Shown: positions 33,656 through 54,392 of the stretch, piece after piece
Position numbering within the stretch: position 1 is the stretch's first letter
Layout: each line of letters opens with the position of its first letter
Origin: Algoriphagus lutimaris
GTDB lineage: Bacteria > Bacteroidota > Bacteroidia > Cytophagales > Cyclobacteriaceae
DNA: 64,000 nucleotides
Direction: 5' to 3'
Assembly: GCF_017051705.1 (NCBI RefSeq)
Contig: NZ_JAFIDJ010000001.1
Location: 434,001-498,000, forward strand
Notes under the pieces: generated by a model
What the model was told of the DNA's origin: nothing
The model's input: only the letters and a program-made list of their open reading frames with translations
The model's database searches: none
Made by a program: the position numbers and the translations under genes

Positions 33656-35227
33656 ATGCTTTTTAATTCTTACGAATATTTGATTTTCCTACCAGTAGTA
33701 TTTCTACTCTACTGGTATGTTTTTAGTAAAAACTTAAAGGTTAGAAATTTTTTCCTCTTAGCTGCCAGCTATCTCTTTTATGGCTGGTGGGATTGGAGAT
33801 TTTTATTCTTGATTATTGCGAGTTCAGCTGTGGATTATTGGTGTGGCTTAAAGATGGCGACAGTCATCTCGAACGAAGAGGGAGTGAAGTCAATTCGACC
33901 GAAGGGAGAAATCTCATCAGTTAAAGAGATTTCTCCTTCCGCAAGCTCCAATCGAAATGACCCCAAGTCCAAATCACCTCGAACTCAGAGAGTGGTCTCA
34001 TTGACAAGAAAAAAACTCTATTTAGCCATCAGCCTAGCCTTCAATCTAGGTCTGCTTGGCTTCTTTAAGTATTTCAACTTCTTTATTGAATCCTCAGTAG
34101 ACTTTATAAATCTTTTGGGCTTTCAGGCCAATATCCATACCCTGAATATCATTCTTCCTGTTGGAATCAGCTTTTATACCTTCCAAACTTTGAGTTATAC
34201 CATCGATGTATATCGAGGCAAGCTGGAACCTACCCAAGACTGGATGGCCTTCTTCGCTTATGTAAGTTTCTTTCCACAGCTCGTGGCAGGTCCTATTGAG
34301 CGGGCATCTAATCTATTACCTCAGTTCTTTCAGAAGAAAAGCTTTGAATATACCTTAGCCATGGATGGGCTTAGACAGATTCTTTGGGGGCTTTTTATGA
34401 AAGTGGTGATAGCAGATAACTGCGCAGTCTTTGTAAACCAAGCATTTACCAACCCAGAAAGTCAGCCAGCCTCCAATCTGTTAATCGGGGCAGTATTTTT
34501 TAGCTTTCAGATTTATGGGGACTTTGCAGGATATTCCAATATCGCTATCGGGACGGGTAAACTCTTTGGTTTTCATTTGATGCAAAACTTTGCTTTTCCT
34601 TATTTTTCTAGGGATATAGCTGAATTCTGGAGAAGATGGCATATTTCTCTTTCTACCTGGTTTAGAGATTACCTTTATATCCCATTGGGAGGATCTATGG
34701 GAAGTAAAACCCAAAGCCTTAGGAATATCTTAATCATCTTTTTGGTTTCTGGATTCTGGCATGGGGCTAATTGGACCTTTATTATTTGGGGAGGCATCAA
34801 TGCCCTTCTCTTTATTCCTCTCTTTTGGTTTGGGAAAAATCGGGTGAATATAGGAATCGTGGCACAAAACCGATCTCTACCAACATTCTATGACCTAGGC
34901 CAAGTACTTCTTACTTTTTCAGTTACCACTCTGGCTTGGATTTTCTTTAGATCTCCAGATTTGAATACTGCTGGAACTTATATAACTCATTTATTTTCCT
35001 CCAGTATTCTTTCAATGCCAAAAATGGATATTAGAGTTTACCTTTTTATTGGTTGGGTGCTGATTTTCATCATTTTGGAATGGATGGGAAGGAGAGAAGA
35101 ATTTGCGATTCAAAAAATGGCATTTAGAAAACCGGCTATAATTCGCTATGGCTTGTATTATGGATTGGTTATGGCAGTATTTCTGTTTGCCAGAAAAGAA
35201 CAGGAATTTATCTATTTTCAGTTTTAA
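33656..35227 (+). CDS. MBOAT family O-acyltransferase (AlgI-like) with an in-frame repeat insert
   Basis: The 523-residue membrane protein should transfer acyl groups, usually acetyl, to a polysaccharide across the membrane. It starts MLFNSYEYLIFLPVVFLLYW as typical AlgI-like proteins do, and has PQLVAGPIERA, FWRRWHISLSTWFRDYLYIP and the catalytic histidine region SGFWHGANW (His369). Residues 70-102 are encoded by a complete family B palindromic repeat of exactly 99 bases, inside a hydrophilic loop between helices. The following SGNH gene starts four bases after the stop, giving the usual acyltransferase pair. Confidence 0.9.
   Translation: MLFNSYEYLIFLPVVFLLYWYVFSKNLKVRNFFLLAASYLFYGWWDWRFLFLIIASSAVDYWCGLKMATVISNEEGVKSIRPKGEISSVKEISPSASSNRNDPKSKSPRTQRVVSLTRKKLYLAISLAFNLGLLGFFKYFNFFIESSVDFINLLGFQANIHTLNIILPVGISFYTFQTLSYTIDVYRGKLEPTQDWMAFFAYVSFFPQLVAGPIERASNLLPQFFQKKSFEYTLAMDGLRQILWGLFMKVVIADNCAVFVNQAFTNPESQPASNLLIGAVFFSFQIYGDFAGYSNIAIGTGKLFGFHLMQNFAFPYFSRDIAEFWRRWHISLSTWFRDYLYIPLGGSMGSKTQSLRNILIIFLVSGFWHGANWTFIIWGGINALLFIPLFWFGKNRVNIGIVAQNRSLPTFYDLGQVLLTFSVTTLAWIFFRSPDLNTAGTYITHLFSSSILSMPKMDIRVYLFIGWVLIFIILEWMGRREEFAIQKMAFRKPAIIRYGLYYGLVMAVFLFARKEQEFIYFQF
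33863..33961. repeat. Family B palindromic repeat inside the MBOAT gene
   Basis: The 99-base element runs from GTCATCTCGAAC to TCGAAATGAC, with the inner inverted pair GGGAGAAATCTC / GAGATTTCTCC. It matches the repeats at 52.7-54.3 kb in end sequence and order. It begins and ends on codon boundaries and reads VISNEEG...SSNRND without a stop. Confidence 0.85.
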
Positions 35228-46405: not shown

Positions 46406-46521
46406 CGTCATTGCGAGGGGCAAGAGTAAGGTTTTCATTTAGTTTAACATTTAAAGCCCCGAAGCAATCTTTTGTTTGGAGTAGTATTGAAACAGATTGC
46501 TTTGCTTCGCTCGCAATGCCG
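46406..46521. repeat. Family A palindromic repeat, copy 1
   Basis: It runs from CGTCATTGCGAGG to TCGCAATGCCG with an inner GAAGCAATCT / AGATTGCTTTGCTTC inverted pair around a spacer of about 24 bases. It starts nine bases after the GT2 stop. Confidence 0.88.
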
Positions 46522-46530
46522 AATTAAAGA

Positions 46531-46654
46531 CGTCATTGCGAGACTTTACCAAGAGGGTATCTTATTCTTAAAAAATTCAAAGTCGAAGCAATCTTTTGAT
46601 CAGGAGTAAGAATCTGACAGATTGCTTCGCTCCATTCTTCCGCTCGCAATGACG
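46531..46654. repeat. Family A palindromic repeat, copy 2
   Basis: It runs from CGTCATTGCGAG to CTCGCAATGACG, with GAAGCAATCT and AGATTGCTTCGCTCC inside. It ends 35 bases before the GIY-YIG gene start, and GAAATGAC from a family B-like end follows near 46677. Confidence 0.88.
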
Positions 46655-46689
46655 AATAGATTTCTTCACTTCTCTTGAAATGACTTAAA

Positions 46690-46989
46690 ATGAAAAAAGG
46701 AGGCGCTGTATATATAATGACCAATTTCAATAATACAGTCCTTTATACAGGTGTCACTGCTGATCTTTTTCAAAGGGTTTATCAACATAAAGAAAGGCTA
46801 GATCCGAAGTCCTTTACTCACAAGTACAATATTAATAAGCTAGTCTATTTTGAGTCTTTTCATAGTATTGAAGAGGCTATTGATAGAGAAAAACAGATCA
46901 AAGGCGGAAGCAGAAAAAAGAAAGAGGATTTGATAAATTCTATGAACCCAGCATGGAAAGATCTTTGGGAGGGTGTAAAGGATTGGTGA
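46690..46989 (+). CDS. Small GIY-YIG nuclease-superfamily protein
   Basis: The 99-residue protein is a single GIY-YIG domain: AVYIMTN supplies the first tyrosine motif, VLYTGVTADLFQRVYQHKE the second motif with the catalytic arginine, and KLVYFESFHSIEEAIDREKQ the glutamate-bearing helix. It belongs to the UPF0213-like group of stand-alone proteins. It lies between family A repeats (two upstream, one downstream) inside a glycosyltransferase operon. The nuclease activity and any target are unproven; position suggests it may act on the repeats. Confidence 0.88.
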   Translation: MKKGGAVYIMTNFNNTVLYTGVTADLFQRVYQHKERLDPKSFTHKYNINKLVYFESFHSIEEAIDREKQIKGGSRKKKEDLINSMNPAWKDLWEGVKDW

Positions 46990-46997
46990 AATTATAA

Positions 46998-47158
46998 CGT
47001 TATTCTGAGGGCAAGAGCAAGGTTTTAATTTAGTATAGAATTTATAGCCCCGAAGCAATCTTTTGATTGGAGTAGTATTGAAACAGATTGTTCCTCTATT
47101 ACTGCGGATCAAAGTGACGAGTAGATTGCTTCGCTCCATTCTTCCGCTCGCAATGACG
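46998..47158. repeat. Family A palindromic repeat, copy 3
   Basis: It begins with a changed left end CGTTATTCTGAGGG, then GAAGCAATCTTTTGATTGGA and two right-hand parts (ACAGATTGTTCC and AGATTGCTTCGCTCC), ending CTCGCAATGACG. It lies between the GIY-YIG gene and the next GT2 gene, nine bases before the latter. Confidence 0.85.
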
Positions 47159-48098: not shown

Positions 48099-49232
48099 AT
48101 GAAAGTAGTTCGTGTCGTTTCAGAATTGGATTTTGGCGGAGTAGAAAAAGTTCTGGCGATTTCCTTGCCTGCACTTAAAAATCAAAATGGCTTGGAGCTT
48201 AAGCTGATCGTATTAGGAAAAGGCGGAAAAGTGGCAGAAGAATTAGTTCCTAATGGAATCGAACCGCAGATTTTAAGCTTTAATCCCAGAATCCCAAATT
48301 TCAAACTGATAAAGAAACTTCAAAACATTTTGATTGAATTTGCACCTGATGTAGTACATACACAAGGGGGAGAGGCTAATTTTCATGGTATTTGGGCAGC
48401 TAAATTGGCCAATGTTCCTTTGGTTATTGGGGAGGAAATTGGTATTCCCAATCATCATACTTATTGGAGATATGTTTTTAAGTGGGTTTATCGTAAAGCG
48501 AATAAAGTAATAGCTATTTCAGAAGCGGTCAAGGAAGCAATTGTGGAGTTGGAAGAGGTGGAAGCTTCAAAAGTAAGTGTAGTATATAATCCGGTCAATA
48601 TCGGAATAGAAGGAAGAGATTTCTCCCTCCGTTCCTCCGGTCGAAATGACCAAATTACCAGTAATTCCCCCTTTGTTTTTGTGTGCACATGTCGATTAGT
48701 ACCGATAAAGAATTTGGACCGATTGATAAAAGCATTTGAGGGATTAGTTAAAGAAAATCAAAATAGAGAACTTTTATTGAGGATTGTTGGAGAAGGGCCG
48801 GAAAGAAATAAGTTAGAAAGCTTAAGTCAGAAATTAGAAATGGGGGGATGTGTAGAGTTTTTAGGTTTTCAGGAGGATGTTTGGCCATTTTTAAATGAAG
48901 CGGATTCTTTTATTCTTCCATCGCTTCGAGAAGGTTCATCGGTTTCCTTGGCTGAGGCCATGAGTGCAGGACTTCCCAGTATAGTCACCAAAGTAGGAGG
49001 AGCTTCCGAAATTCTTGGCAAATCCCAGTCAGGGATTTTAATTGATCCTTTAAAAACCCTGGAACTTCAATCTGCGATGCAAAAATTATTAGACATTCCT
49101 TATGAAGAAAGAATTTCAATGGGACAAAGGGCAGAAGAAGAAGCAAAACGTTTTTCAGTTGAACATTATTTAGATTCCTTACTATCCATTTATGCTTTTT
49201 CAGATTTAAGACTTAAGCCTTCAGACTTTTGA
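48099..49232 (+). CDS. Family 4 glycosyltransferase with a 12-codon repeat insert
   Basis: The 377-residue GT-B protein starts MKVVRVVSELDFGGVEKVLA and has NKVIAISEAVKEAI, CTCRLVPIKNLDRLIKAFEG at the start of the second domain, and ILPSLREGSSVSLAEAMSAG with the donor-binding glutamates. Residues 173-184 (RDFSLRSSGRND) come from a half copy of the family B repeat, placed in the interdomain linker right after VVYNPVNIGIEG. Its end overlaps the next GT4 gene by four bases. Confidence 0.88.
   Translation: MKVVRVVSELDFGGVEKVLAISLPALKNQNGLELKLIVLGKGGKVAEELVPNGIEPQILSFNPRIPNFKLIKKLQNILIEFAPDVVHTQGGEANFHGIWAAKLANVPLVIGEEIGIPNHHTYWRYVFKWVYRKANKVIAISEAVKEAIVELEEVEASKVSVVYNPVNIGIEGRDFSLRSSGRNDQITSNSPFVFVCTCRLVPIKNLDRLIKAFEGLVKENQNRELLLRIVGEGPERNKLESLSQKLEMGGCVEFLGFQEDVWPFLNEADSFILPSLREGSSVSLAEAMSAGLPSIVTKVGGASEILGKSQSGILIDPLKTLELQSAMQKLLDIPYEERISMGQRAEEEAKRFSVEHYLDSLLSIYAFSDLRLKPSDF
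48615..48650. repeat. Half family B repeat inside a GT4 gene
   Basis: The 36-base piece runs from AGAGATTTCTCC to TCGAAATGAC and matches the right half of family B elements at 52.7-54.3 kb. It occupies exactly 12 codons and is read in the same frame (ending R-N-D) as the insert in the MBOAT gene. Confidence 0.8.
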
Positions 49233-51626: not shown

Positions 51627-52711
51627 AAAAAAAGAAGAAGATTCTTTTTCTCCCTAAATACCCTCGACAGGGAGCCTCCAGTAGGTTGAGAACTTTCCAG
51701 TACCTGGATTTATGGAAGCAGCAAGGAGTAGAGGTCAGCGTATCCTCATTTTTTAATTCAAAATACCTTTCTCAGATTTACCAGAATCAAAAACCTCAGT
51801 TCATCAATGTCTTGAAATGCTATCTGAAAAGGTGTTGGGTGCTGATGTACAGTTGGAGGTATGATCTGATTTGGATAGAAAAAGAGGCCTTTCCTTTTCT
51901 ACCTTCCTATGCGGAATGGCTGATTGAAAAATTAGGAAAGGGCTACATCGTCGATTATGATGATGCCGTTTTTCATAACTATGATCAGAATCCCAATTGG
52001 TTGGTCCGGACCTGGATGGGGAATAAAATTGATTGGGTGATGCGGCATTCCCGAATAGTTTTTGTGGGAAATTCTTACTTGGGCAAAAGGGCTAAATTGG
52101 CAGGTGCTTTGGATGTACAGATTTTACCTACCGTGGTAGAAACAACTGTCTATTCTGTTCATCGAAATAACAATAATTCTAAAATTAGACTGGGCTGGAT
52201 TGGGTCTCCCTCCACAACCAAATATTTGAATTTTTTAACGTCAATTTTTGAAGAATTAAGTAAAACACTTGATTTTGAGTTGTTGATTATTAATTCTCCA
52301 CATGTTCAGCTACCTGATTTTACTTGTGAGTATAGCTTGATTCCTTGGAAGGAGGAAGAGGAGAGTTCACAGATCTCTCAATTTGATATTGGAATGATGC
52401 CATTACCAGATAGTGACTGGGAAAAGGGGAAATGTGCTTACAAGTTAATTCAATACATGGCTTGTGGATTGCCGGTGGTGGCTTCCCCTGTAGGAATGAA
52501 CAAGGATGTGGTACGACCTGGAGAAAATGGTTTCTTGGCTTCCACTGAATTGGAATGGCTGGAGGCATTGAGTCTGCTGATAAGTGATTCATCATTGAGA
52601 GTGAAGATGGGAGATGCTGGAAGAAAGTTGGTGGAGAATGAATATAGTTTGGAGAAGAACTTTGAGAAGATCAAGAGGGCTGTGGAAGGGGTTTTTCATA
52701 AAGGTAGGTAG
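51623..52711 (+). CDS. Family 4-like glycosyltransferase
   Basis: The 362-residue protein starts on GTG with a basic KKKKKILFLPKYPRQGASSR, and has YIVDYDDAVFHNYDQNPNWL in the middle and KCAYKLIQYMACGLPVVASP near residues 271-290, the donor-binding part of GT4-type enzymes. It overlaps the Wzy-like gene by four bases. Family B repeat sequence starts immediately after its stop (GGTAGGTAG then AGAGAGATTTCTCC), so its original C-terminus or 3' end may have been altered by the repeat. Confidence 0.83.
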   Translation: MKKKKKILFLPKYPRQGASSRLRTFQYLDLWKQQGVEVSVSSFFNSKYLSQIYQNQKPQFINVLKCYLKRCWVLMYSWRYDLIWIEKEAFPFLPSYAEWLIEKLGKGYIVDYDDAVFHNYDQNPNWLVRTWMGNKIDWVMRHSRIVFVGNSYLGKRAKLAGALDVQILPTVVETTVYSVHRNNNNSKIRLGWIGSPSTTKYLNFLTSIFEELSKTLDFELLIINSPHVQLPDFTCEYSLIPWKEEEESSQISQFDIGMMPLPDSDWEKGKCAYKLIQYMACGLPVVASPVGMNKDVVRPGENGFLASTELEWLEALSLLISDSSLRVKMGDAGRKLVENEYSLEKNFEKIKRAVEGVFHKGR

Positions 52712-53550
52712 AGAGAGATTTCTCCTCCTCGTTCCTCGTCGTCGAAATGACCGAGGAGTAATTCATGTTAATTTGTCATTTCGAACGAGCAACCGAAAAA
52801 GTAAAAGCTAGAAGTTCTGTTGTTGCGAGGAGAAATCTAAAAGTCGTTAATAAAGTCAGGGTTTTTGAATGGGTTGAATGAGAGATTTCCTGCCTTCAGC
52901 AGGCAGGCTCAGTCGCTACACTGTGTTTGGCTCCTTCGAAATGACAATTAGAAAGAATCGAATTTTGTGTCATTTCGAACGAGCAACCTAAAAAGAAAAA
53001 GCAAGAAGTTTTGGGGCTGCGAGGAGAAATCTAAAAGGTCTGTTAATAAAGTTGGAATATGGAGTGACCGATGTAAAGATTTCTCAGTCGGTTTAACTTT
53101 TTGTATTCAGAATTTAATGCTTGACCTCCTTCGAAATGACCATAGAAATCGCTTTGTGTTATTTGTCATTTCGACTGCAAGGAGAAATCTAAAGTTTTGT
53201 TTTTAAAGAAGGGTTTGTGAATGGGTTGAATGAGAGATTTCCTGCCTTCAGCAGGCAGGCTCAGTCGCTACACTGTGTTTGGCTCCTTCGAAATGACAAT
53301 TAGAAAGAATCGAATTTTGTGTCATTTCGAACGAGCAACCTAAAAAGAAAAAGCAAGAAGTTTTGGGGCTGCGAGGAGAAATCTAAAAGGTCTGTTAATA
53401 AAGTTGGAATATGGAGTGACCGATGTAAAGATTTCTCAGTCGGTTTAACTTTTTGTATTCAGAATTTAATGCTTGACCTCCTTCGAAATGACCATAGAAA
53501 TCGCTTTGTGTTATTTGTCATTTCGACTGCAGGGAGAAATCTAAAACACT
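52712..53550. repeat. Family B repeat array, left of the GIY-YIG gene
   Basis: This 839-base stretch is made of alternating left parts (GTCATTTCGA...GGAGAAATCT) and right parts (AGAGATTTC...TCGAAATGAC) of the palindrome, separated by spacers of 20-60 bases. It includes a duplication of about 328 bases: 52866-53193 and 53218-53545, offset 352, with one mismatch noticed (53180 A, 53532 G). Open frames in it read VISTAGRNL and RND and are repeat translations, not genes. Confidence 0.88.
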
Positions 53551-53817
53551 ATGTTTGTCTACATCCTTACAAATAAGAATAAGACGACCCTATATGTTGG
53601 GGTAACCAATGATTTAAGCAAAAGGTTGGCAGAACATAGGGAGGCAAGAAATACTTTTACTTCAAAATATAAGTGCTATAATTTAATTTACTTTGAGGAA
53701 TTCCAGTCTCCCCTGGATGCAATAGCTAGAGAAAAAGAGATTAAAAAGTGGCGAAGGGAGAAAAAGGAACGTTTGATTTCCTCACTGAACCCTCACTGGG
53801 ATTTTTGGGAGTTTTAG
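53551..53817 (+). CDS. Small GIY-YIG nuclease-superfamily protein
   Basis: The 88-residue protein is one GIY-YIG domain: MFVYILTNKNKTTLYVGVTN carries both tyrosine motifs, DLSKRLAEHREAR the catalytic arginine, and LIYFEEFQSPLDAIAREKEI the glutamate helix. It resembles the protein at 46690 (shared Y-I-x-T-N, L-Y-x-G-V-T, K-Y-N/K-x-N-x-L-x-Y-F-E, N-P-x-W). The ATG lies five bases after the GGGAGAAATCTAAAA end of a family B unit, and another unit starts 12 bases after the stop. It thus sits inside the repeat array. Function is unproven. Confidence 0.88.
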   Translation: MFVYILTNKNKTTLYVGVTNDLSKRLAEHREARNTFTSKYKCYNLIYFEEFQSPLDAIAREKEIKKWRREKKERLISSLNPHWDFWEF

Positions 53818-54328
53818 GTTAGAGAGATTTCTCCTCCTCGTTCCTCGTCGTCGAAATGACCAAAGTGCATTTCACGTTAATTAGTCATTTCGACCGCAGG
53901 GAGAAATCTAAAAGTCGTTGATAAAGTCTGGGATTGTGAATGGGTTGAATGAGAGATTTCTCAGTCGCTACACTGTGTTTCGCTCCTTCGAAATGACAAT
54001 TAGAACGAATCGAATTTTGTGTCATTTCGAACGAGCATGCTGAAAATTTAAAGTTAGTAGTTCAGTTTTTGCAAGGAGAAATCTAAAGTTTTGCTTTTAA
54101 AGAAGGGTTTGTGAATGGAATGCATAAGAGATTTCCTGCCTTCAGCAGGCAGGCTCAGTCACTCCACGGCGTTACGCTTCTTCGAAATGACCAAAGTGCA
54201 TTTCACGTTAATTAGTCATTTCGACCGCAGGGAGAAATCTAAAAAACCTTTATAAAAGGAGGAATAGTGAAAAGAGCGAAGGATAGATTTCTCAGTCGCT
54301 CCACTGTGTTTCGCTTCTTCGAAATGAC
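53818..54328. repeat. Family B repeat array, right of the GIY-YIG gene
   Basis: Family B units continue after the GIY-YIG gene: AGAGATTTCTCCTCC...CGAAATGAC, GTCATTTCGACCGCAGGGAG, and further copies up to TCGAAATGAC at 54328. The block AAGTGCATTTCACGTTAATT occurs twice, near 53864 and 54193. The unit CTGCCTTCAGCAGGCAGGC, seen twice on the left, recurs here near 54137. No gene is seen. Confidence 0.85.
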
Positions 54329-54392
54329 CCTTAAGACTTTACTTGGTAGTTAAAGATTTTTGTTTAACCTACCTTTTCAGCTCAAAGACCAT

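Follow-up and report, generated by a model that had tools for sequence, protein, structure and literature searches.

A GIY-YIG gene within an array of alternating hairpins

The window analysed, a stretch of 64,000 nucleotides corresponding to C1:434001-498000 of a 4.7-Mb genome, hosts at 52716-54328 a 1.6 kb array of 17 hairpins, denominated array B. The array is located between an ORF ending with its stop codon at 52711 and an ORF beginning at 54360. All the hairpins fit the pattern GTCATTTC-loop-GAAATCT, and strictly alternate in orientation. Markov-1 shuffling of the array, repeated 500 times, never yielded more than 2 hairpins of this kind. A sequence-only reading had placed an 88-aa GIY-YIG gene inside a 1.6-kb array of family B repeats, and the ORF, its match to PF01541 and the shuffles all bear this out.

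The hairpins, detected by motif scan, belong to the TTTC class. Hairpin 1 (52716-52751, - strand, 36 nt) is an unpaired half unit, followed by hairpin 2 (52775-52838, +, 64 nt), hairpin 3 (52883-52945, -), which includes a CCTGCC..GGCAGG palindrome within one arm, and hairpins 4 (52969-53032, +), 5 (53077-53140, -), 6 (53165-53190, +, a short 26-nt form), 7 (53235-53297, -), 8 (53321-53384, +) and 9 (53429-53492, -). Hairpins 10 (53517-53542, +) and 11 (53825-53860, -) are the left and right members of the gene-bearing unit. The first ends 8 nt before the start codon, and the second begins 7 nt after the stop codon, of the stand-alone GIY-YIG nuclease gene (53551-53817, +). The array continues with hairpins 12 (53884-53909, +, short form), 13 (53954-53997, -), 14 (54021-54084, +), 15 (54129-54191, -), 16 (54215-54240, +, short form) and 17 (54285-54328, -).

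Spacing is regular. Tagged ends face each other 8 times, at a distance of 23 or 24 nt, and untagged ends 7 times, at a distance of exactly 44 nt. In one unit the gap measures 282 nt, and the GIY-YIG gene takes the place of the 44-nt spacer. One repeat pair hence has the gene in its spacer, and the remaining pairs resemble a gene-less form of this unit. Tandem duplication is evident in part of the array, where two stretches of 300 nt, at a distance of 352 nt, show 96% identity and include 128 nt at 100% identity.

GTC is present in 17/17 hairpins by design of the search pattern; the base preceding it varies (TGTC 9, GGTC 6, AGTC 2, CGTC 0). The perfect outer stem is 5 bp long (ATTTC/GAAAT, AT first) and encloses loops of about 11-49 nt; the 3' end is CT, and a CCA tail is missing. 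A 19-nt palindrome, CCTGCCTTCAGCAGGCAGG, is found within the arms of three hairpins (52889-52907, 53241-53259, 54135-54153), and is absent from the sister copies. Short palindromes, such as TCCGCCGCGGCGGA, also interrupt degenerate tRNA pieces at locus L003.

The encoded nuclease

The 88-aa protein matches PF01541 (E 1.4e-17; 64.2 bits, the cut-off being 22.6) and T5orf172, and does not match PF01797, the HuH Y1 transposase domain. Residues Y15, G17, R25, H29, E61 and N80 are invariant in an alignment of 45 sequences, both window proteins included; all but H29 are presumably catalytic, with the same role as in I-TevI and UvrC. The AlphaFold2 model has a pLDDT of 93.8 and a pTM of 0.84. When the model was compared with solved structures, the best 16 matches were all GIY-YIG proteins, and the predicted structure is accordingly assigned to the GIY-YIG fold. 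The top-ranked match is 1zg2 (UPF0213), structures of Slx1, which is a nuclease of branched DNA, occupy ranks 2-6, and I-TevI is found among the matches. By sequence search, the only relatives of solved structure are the UPF0213 proteins 1zg2 and 1ywl. Profile, conserved active-site positions and predicted fold all agree, and the protein is a member of the GIY-YIG superfamily.

A second pairing and other hairpins in the genome

A second stand-alone GIY-YIG gene, 54% identical to the first and assigned to the TTGC-class clade, is located at 46705-46989 (+). It lies in a region (46407-47157) of hairpins of the type GTCATTGC...GCAATCT, denominated family A, as the sequence-only reading had it in reporting two independent enzyme-palindrome pairings in the window. 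TTGC-class hairpins were detected by motif scan at 46407-46470 (+), 46532-46594 (+), 46619-46653 (-) and 47123-47157 (-), and a TTTC-class hairpin at 46658-46684 (-). The GTCATT-CGA end plan proposed for A and B is not all that they have in common, both being GTC-tagged hairpins. Their stems, ATTGC/GCAAT and ATTTC/GAAAT, are set apart by one compensated base change, which is what one expects of a hairpin that matters. The same scan detected solo TTTC-class hairpins at 48617-48650 (-) and 33927-33961 (-).

In the whole genome, the shorter-loop pattern GTCATTTC-N(2-32)-GAAATCT, which catches 8 hairpins of array B, found 32 matches against 1 for the reversed control. Besides those in array B, 13 are in a direct array, and 11 elsewhere. 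The direct array (C1:582929-584172; L013:2930-4173) is made of TTTC-class hairpins all in the same orientation, spaced 83-104 nt with one gap of 180, and the genome-wide GIY-YIG list places no GIY-YIG gene near it.

TTTC hairpins away from the gene have a median of 4.5 in the 8 genomes with a sampled TTTC-class gene versus 1 in the 36 without (p 0.014), and TTGC hairpins follow the same trend, and a trend only (median 4 in 9 genomes versus 1 in 35, p 0.064). Both comparisons are only partly informative, because the GIY-YIG genes of each genome were sampled incompletely; several genomes host many TTTC hairpins and feature no sampled TTTC-labelled gene.

Tagged hairpins accompany stand-alone GIY-YIG genes

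Related genes were searched in 98 genomes of the same family and 296 of the phylum, taking mostly the strongest matches, in PLSDB (33 records, some chromosome-sized, of which 16 were fetched), in a named GTDB set (best 80 of at least 579 relatives) and among viral contigs (n=23). The profile used for the named GTDB set was made of ten plasmid-record proteins, most of which already seen beside hairpins, plus one from L093. The sets were drawn by protein similarity, and are hence not a random sample of GIY-YIG genes. The 301 domain hits were reduced to 290 by a size filter, and correspond to 264 distinct GIY-YIG domains. Left out of the counts were 5/80 named loci, 1/16 plasmid records and 2/23 viral contigs.

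A first, stricter motif, GTCATTxy...y'x'AATCT, was found within 1.5 kb of 43/79 family genes, and was missing near the gene in 4/16 records (L114, L117, L119, L121). After inspection of the family set the motif was widened to GTCAwxyz-loop(2-70)-z'y'x'w'TC, and the named, phylum and viral sets were scanned only after it had been fixed. With the wider motif, a GTCA-tagged hairpin was found within 300 bp of 230/264 stand-alone GIY-YIG genes from several phyla. In 11 of the 34 genes lacking a formal hairpin at this distance (L203, L204, L217, L219, L224, L226, L235, L240, L262, L270, L288), a GTCA-adjacent hairpin with a mismatched first pair was recognised by eye, and L121, also among the misses, has by eye a CCTC-tagged hairpin. 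The 264 include four genes of the tRNA type from the genome of the window, 3 of them counted as misses and 1 (L011) carrying a chance label.

Hairpin density within 200 bp of the gene is 4.8-6.5/kb, and falls beyond 1 kb to 0.15-0.63/kb in well-filled bins, being about 0.25 in the two largest sets; the reversed-sequence control within 200 bp gave 0.00-0.21 per kb. A hairpin is found at 200 bp or less in 207/241 loci of the five sets (named 59/75, plasmid 13/15, family 57/66, phylum 59/64, viral 19/21). Limiting the count to non-coding DNA, with ORFs defined by length and not by annotation, density is 6.31/kb near versus 0.56/kb far. The sequence-only reading had argued that two pairings in one window make chance association less likely. 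Compared with other short ORFs of the same loci, the pairing is enriched, a hairpin lying within 200 bp of 133/161 GIY-YIG genes versus 20/88 other ORFs (Fisher p ~1e-20). More distant sister GIY-YIG genes from the same family of genomes, mostly adjacent to tRNA genes, have a hairpin in 2/34 cases.

The tag emerges also when it is not searched for. Perfect hairpins with stems of at least 7 bp, whatever their flanks, occur at 3.12/kb within about 220 bp of the genes versus 0.77 far away. The commonest trinucleotides flanking the 374 near hairpins are GTC (224) and TGG (158), which reads CCA on the opposite strand; the corresponding figures for 721 far hairpins are 48 and 42. GTC and CCA are the tag and the tail given for CGTC REPs in PMC3733652. 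In the tagged search, with all genes taken together, near hairpins are tagged by CGTC (281), TGTC (258), AGTC (37) or GGTC (36).

Orientation is not random. The nearest upstream hairpin is in + orientation in 122 genes and in - orientation in 83 (p 0.008), the nearest downstream hairpin is - in 130 and + in 73 (p 8e-5), and tags thus tend to face outward. Among 178 genes having hairpins within 300 bp on both sides, 84 have their pair tagged outward, as in the window, 34 have the opposite arrangement, and in 108/178 the stem is identical on the two sides. A motif-free measure of inverted similarity between the two flanks supports the arrangement, and is weaker than the motif tests: in 22/78 genes the similarity lies above the 99th percentile for mismatched flank pairs, and the own flank pair is the best of its row in 38%.

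Y1 transposases were also considered as the mobilising enzyme, and rejected. They are present in 80/98 family genomes, and the window's own genome has 3. A formal GTCA match was found at 4/20 Y1 loci, none REP-like by eye, and the density of such matches is 0.31/kb near the gene versus 0.17/kb far. GTAG hairpins are near the Y1 transposase gene in 2/20 loci. At one Y1 locus (L319) two TTTC hairpins lie about 0.8 kb away.

Hairpin stems follow protein clades

Each gene was labelled with the commonest stem found within 300 bp; the labels include some chance hairpins, which should weaken, and not strengthen, any match between clade and stem. Between genomes, the same 4-nt stem is found in about 8% of protein pairs that are 30-50% identical, and in 53-61% of those above 70%. 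The nearest cross-genome relative has the same stem for 44% of 230 genes, versus a mean of 11% and a maximum of 20% in 500 permutations. On a protein tree of 196/230 labelled genes, limited to stems seen at least four times, parsimony requires 68 changes of stem class versus at least 118 (mean 125) in 60 shuffles.

Genomes often host several GIY-YIG paralogues, frequently with differing stems. When stems were permuted within genomes (24 genomes or records, 66 genes), 38% observed matches compared with 22% expected, and none of 2000 permutations scored as high. Same-genome pairs have a common stem in 23% of 73 cases, and dissimilar pairs (<50% identity) in 1/31. Hairpin stems follow protein clades, and do so also within genomes. 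In 106 disjoint protein pairs a few columns track the stem (uncorrected p 0.002-0.01, the best being position 30), and no claim is made on these. In some Bacteroidota contigs (L151, L159, L175, L178) several GIY-YIG paralogues are found within about 0.4-9 kb, and stems differ in L151.

The sequence-only reading had suggested that enzyme and repeat families co-evolve, and proposed to compare protein clades with repeats across Cytophagales. Carried beyond this group, the comparison revealed a match, and a pairing wider than had been supposed. The correspondence between families stands. Its cause would plausibly be recognition of the hairpin by the enzyme rather than joint inheritance as one block, though the latter could also produce a stem-clade match.

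Spread and presence/absence

Besides Bacteroidota and Pseudomonadota, the pairing is found in a cyanobacterium and in candidate phyla. It was read directly in Sinorhizobium meliloti, Rhizobium, Neorhizobium, Shinella, Azospirillum, Aeromonas caviae, Neisseria gonorrhoeae, Photobacterium, Planktothrix and Spirosoma, and likewise in Magnetospirillum, Thiobacillus, Massilia, Winogradskyella and Arenibacter, and in Nitrospinae, Ignavibacteriales, Parcubacteria and Uhrbacteria genomes. In the N. gonorrhoeae record the GIY-YIG gene lies among CGTC hairpins, which we take to be dRS3 copies. A strict search over 50 kb of S. meliloti pSymB found no REP. In contigs classed as viral (L271-L293) the same gene is found, with hairpins adjoining in 19/21 loci.

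The gene and its repeats are present or absent as a block between related species. Azospirillum lipoferum 4B carries between sufB and sufC a block of about 574 bp, made of a hairpin pair, the gene and another hairpin pair. At the same place A. oryzae has 41 bp that BLAST leaves unmatched, and strain B510 has 86 bp; flanks are 94-96% identical. A. ramasamyi is similarly devoid of the block. The ends of an insertion and any target duplication are illegible at the level of single bases, because the flanking spacer has diverged. Over the 50 kb examined in Azospirillum, strict-type hairpins are found only at the GIY-YIG gene. Matches to empty sites in Rhizobium and Shinella are coarse only. Gene and hairpins following sufB and preceding sufC are common to A. 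lipoferum (L118) and, by eye, to a Shinella strain (L120).

Relationship to known repeats and enzymes

According to PMC3733652 (Di Nocera et al. 2013), CGTC REPs "apparently lack a dedicated transposase". They are described there as having a 5' tag (CGTC, TGTC or CCTC), an 8-9 bp stem with AT first, a 4-5 nt loop and a CCA tail, as forming predominantly opposite-orientation dimers and, per a table, as being rarely found in dense clusters; dRS3 of Neisseria is assigned to CGTC-1. The hairpins described here resemble CGTC REPs in the CGTC or TGTC tag, the AT-first stem and the opposite-orientation dimers. Proteobacterial relatives match them also in the CCA tail and the 8-9 bp stem; CCA tails and short loops were found in L107, L108 and L118. 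Array B agrees in its dimers, as the 17 hairpins strictly alternate, and differs in the 5-bp outer stem, long loops, missing CCA tail, 0/17 CGTC tags and, unlike typical CGTC repeats, dense clustering (PMC3733652). It is called CGTC-like, and not a member, since stem length, loop length and CCA tail do not fit. A further difference is the GIY-YIG gene beside the hairpins, as no associated enzyme is reported for CGTC REPs in PMC3733652.

In RAYT (TnpA-REP) REPtrons too, as described in PMC3733652 and PMC8266576, tagged hairpins flank one small enzyme gene, and repeat classes are enzyme-specific where a species has several. The enzyme differs, being GIY-YIG and not an HuH Y1 transposase, and the tag is GTC and not GTAG.

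With the homing endonuclease I-TevI and with Slx1 the protein shares nuclease fold and catalytic positions. Its 88 aa leave no room for an extra DNA-binding domain, and unlike both it occurs among repeats of the REP kind rather than within introns or as part of a Slx1-Slx4 complex. UPF0213 proteins are the only solved sequence relatives, and include the best fold match. In an open-access literature search, which covered neither preprints nor most subscription papers, no link of GIY-YIG to REP, CGTC, RAYT or dRS3 was found among the matches listed. Both kinds of term occur in PMC10928387 and PMC9465073, which deal with unrelated topics, and neither 'GIY' nor 'transposase' occurs in the main text of a 2025 REP survey.

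A candidate mobile unit

The gene lies within an inverted pair of hairpins, the association is specific, and stems match clades. We favour, with a probability of about 0.6, the reading that gene and array are a mobile unit of the REPtron kind, with a single-domain GIY-YIG nuclease in place of the HuH transposase (RAYT, TnpA-REP) of classical REP systems. The nuclease would recognise, probably in single-stranded or cruciform form, hairpins that combine a GTC tag on the 5' side with a stem specific to its clade, and would nick or break DNA at or near the tag. Repair would then copy the repeat pair, and sometimes the pair together with the gene, to new places. Gene-bearing units would represent the autonomous form and empty pairs the non-autonomous form, and arrays might be built by later tandem duplication. 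To our knowledge, a 5'-phosphotyrosine intermediate of the kind formed by HuH enzymes is not to be expected here, the enzyme being GIY-YIG. The inferred part of this proposal comprises recognition, cutting and movement.

The strongest rival, to which we assign a distinctly smaller chance, sees the gene as a homing passenger which cuts hairpins to copy itself in, repeats being spread by something else. GIY-YIG is a fold of homing endonucleases, and the match to I-TevI, together with weak matches to homing families, suits this view, as do the hairpins located away from the gene (of 32, the 13 of the direct array devoid of GIY-YIG genes and the 11 elsewhere). However, Y1 transposases, the known REP enzymes, are not beside these hairpins in the 20 loci inspected; no associated transposase gene is reported for CGTC REPs in PMC3733652; and the stem class of the repeats tracks the nuclease clade.

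It is rather improbable that the nuclease is a domesticated housekeeping protein, kept to protect the chromosome by processing repeat cruciforms in a Slx1-like manner. The rank of Slx1 structures among fold matches would agree with this, but the coexistence in one genome of several paralogues, often with different stems, the presence/absence between related species and the clustering of repeats at the gene all fit a mobile unit better.

Alternatively, the hairpins may serve the nuclease gene as regulatory signals, for transcription or mRNA stability, without being the substrate of the nuclease. Those within 300 bp are indeed close to both gene ends (median distance 69 bp upstream, 27 bp downstream). 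This reading is very unlikely, as it leaves GTC tag, stem-to-clade match and long alternating arrays unexplained, and hairpins are much less frequent near other short ORFs of the same loci. That the gene landed by chance near repeats, and both were inherited together, is hardly credible: relatedness inflates clade tests, and sets were drawn by protein similarity, but recurrence across the phyla named above, the within-genome permutations, the rarity of common stems among dissimilar paralogues and the density of hairpins near the gene, along with the stem-clade tests, already contradict it.

Extending the mobile unit reading, we consider it slightly better than an even bet that the dedicated enzymes missing for CGTC-type REPs are stand-alone GIY-YIG nucleases. 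Nucleases and repeats would together make up one class of bacterial mobile elements, whose hosts include Bacteroidota, Pseudomonadota, a cyanobacterium and candidate phyla. In such an element a nuclease domain of about 90 aa would read the stem of its own tagged hairpin and spread the hairpin, enzyme and repeat diverging together. A candidate enzyme may now be named for CGTC REPs, which PMC3733652 described in 2013 as apparently lacking a dedicated transposase. If this is true, the origin of much bacterial intergenic repeat DNA, including dRS3 (CGTC-1 according to the same source), would be explained, and GIY-YIG nucleases would join the enzymes mobilising miniature elements in bacteria. The candidate can be tested at the bench with one 88-aa protein and short oligonucleotides, and the stem-to-clade match provides a natural series for studying hairpin recognition by a very small nuclease.

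GIY-YIG genes adjacent to tRNA genes

Small GIY-YIG genes of the tRNA type (L299-L318) have a tRNA gene in 18/20 fetched loci, and in 8/20 a second GIY-YIG copy, near-identical or truncated. In the window's genome such genes are found at L010 (C1:1126000-1136000), L011 (C1:1138000-1150000) and L012 (C8:900000-914000), and tandem tRNA-type copies are accompanied by degenerate tRNA pieces. The set looks like a parallel system, in which tRNA genes take the place of hairpins.
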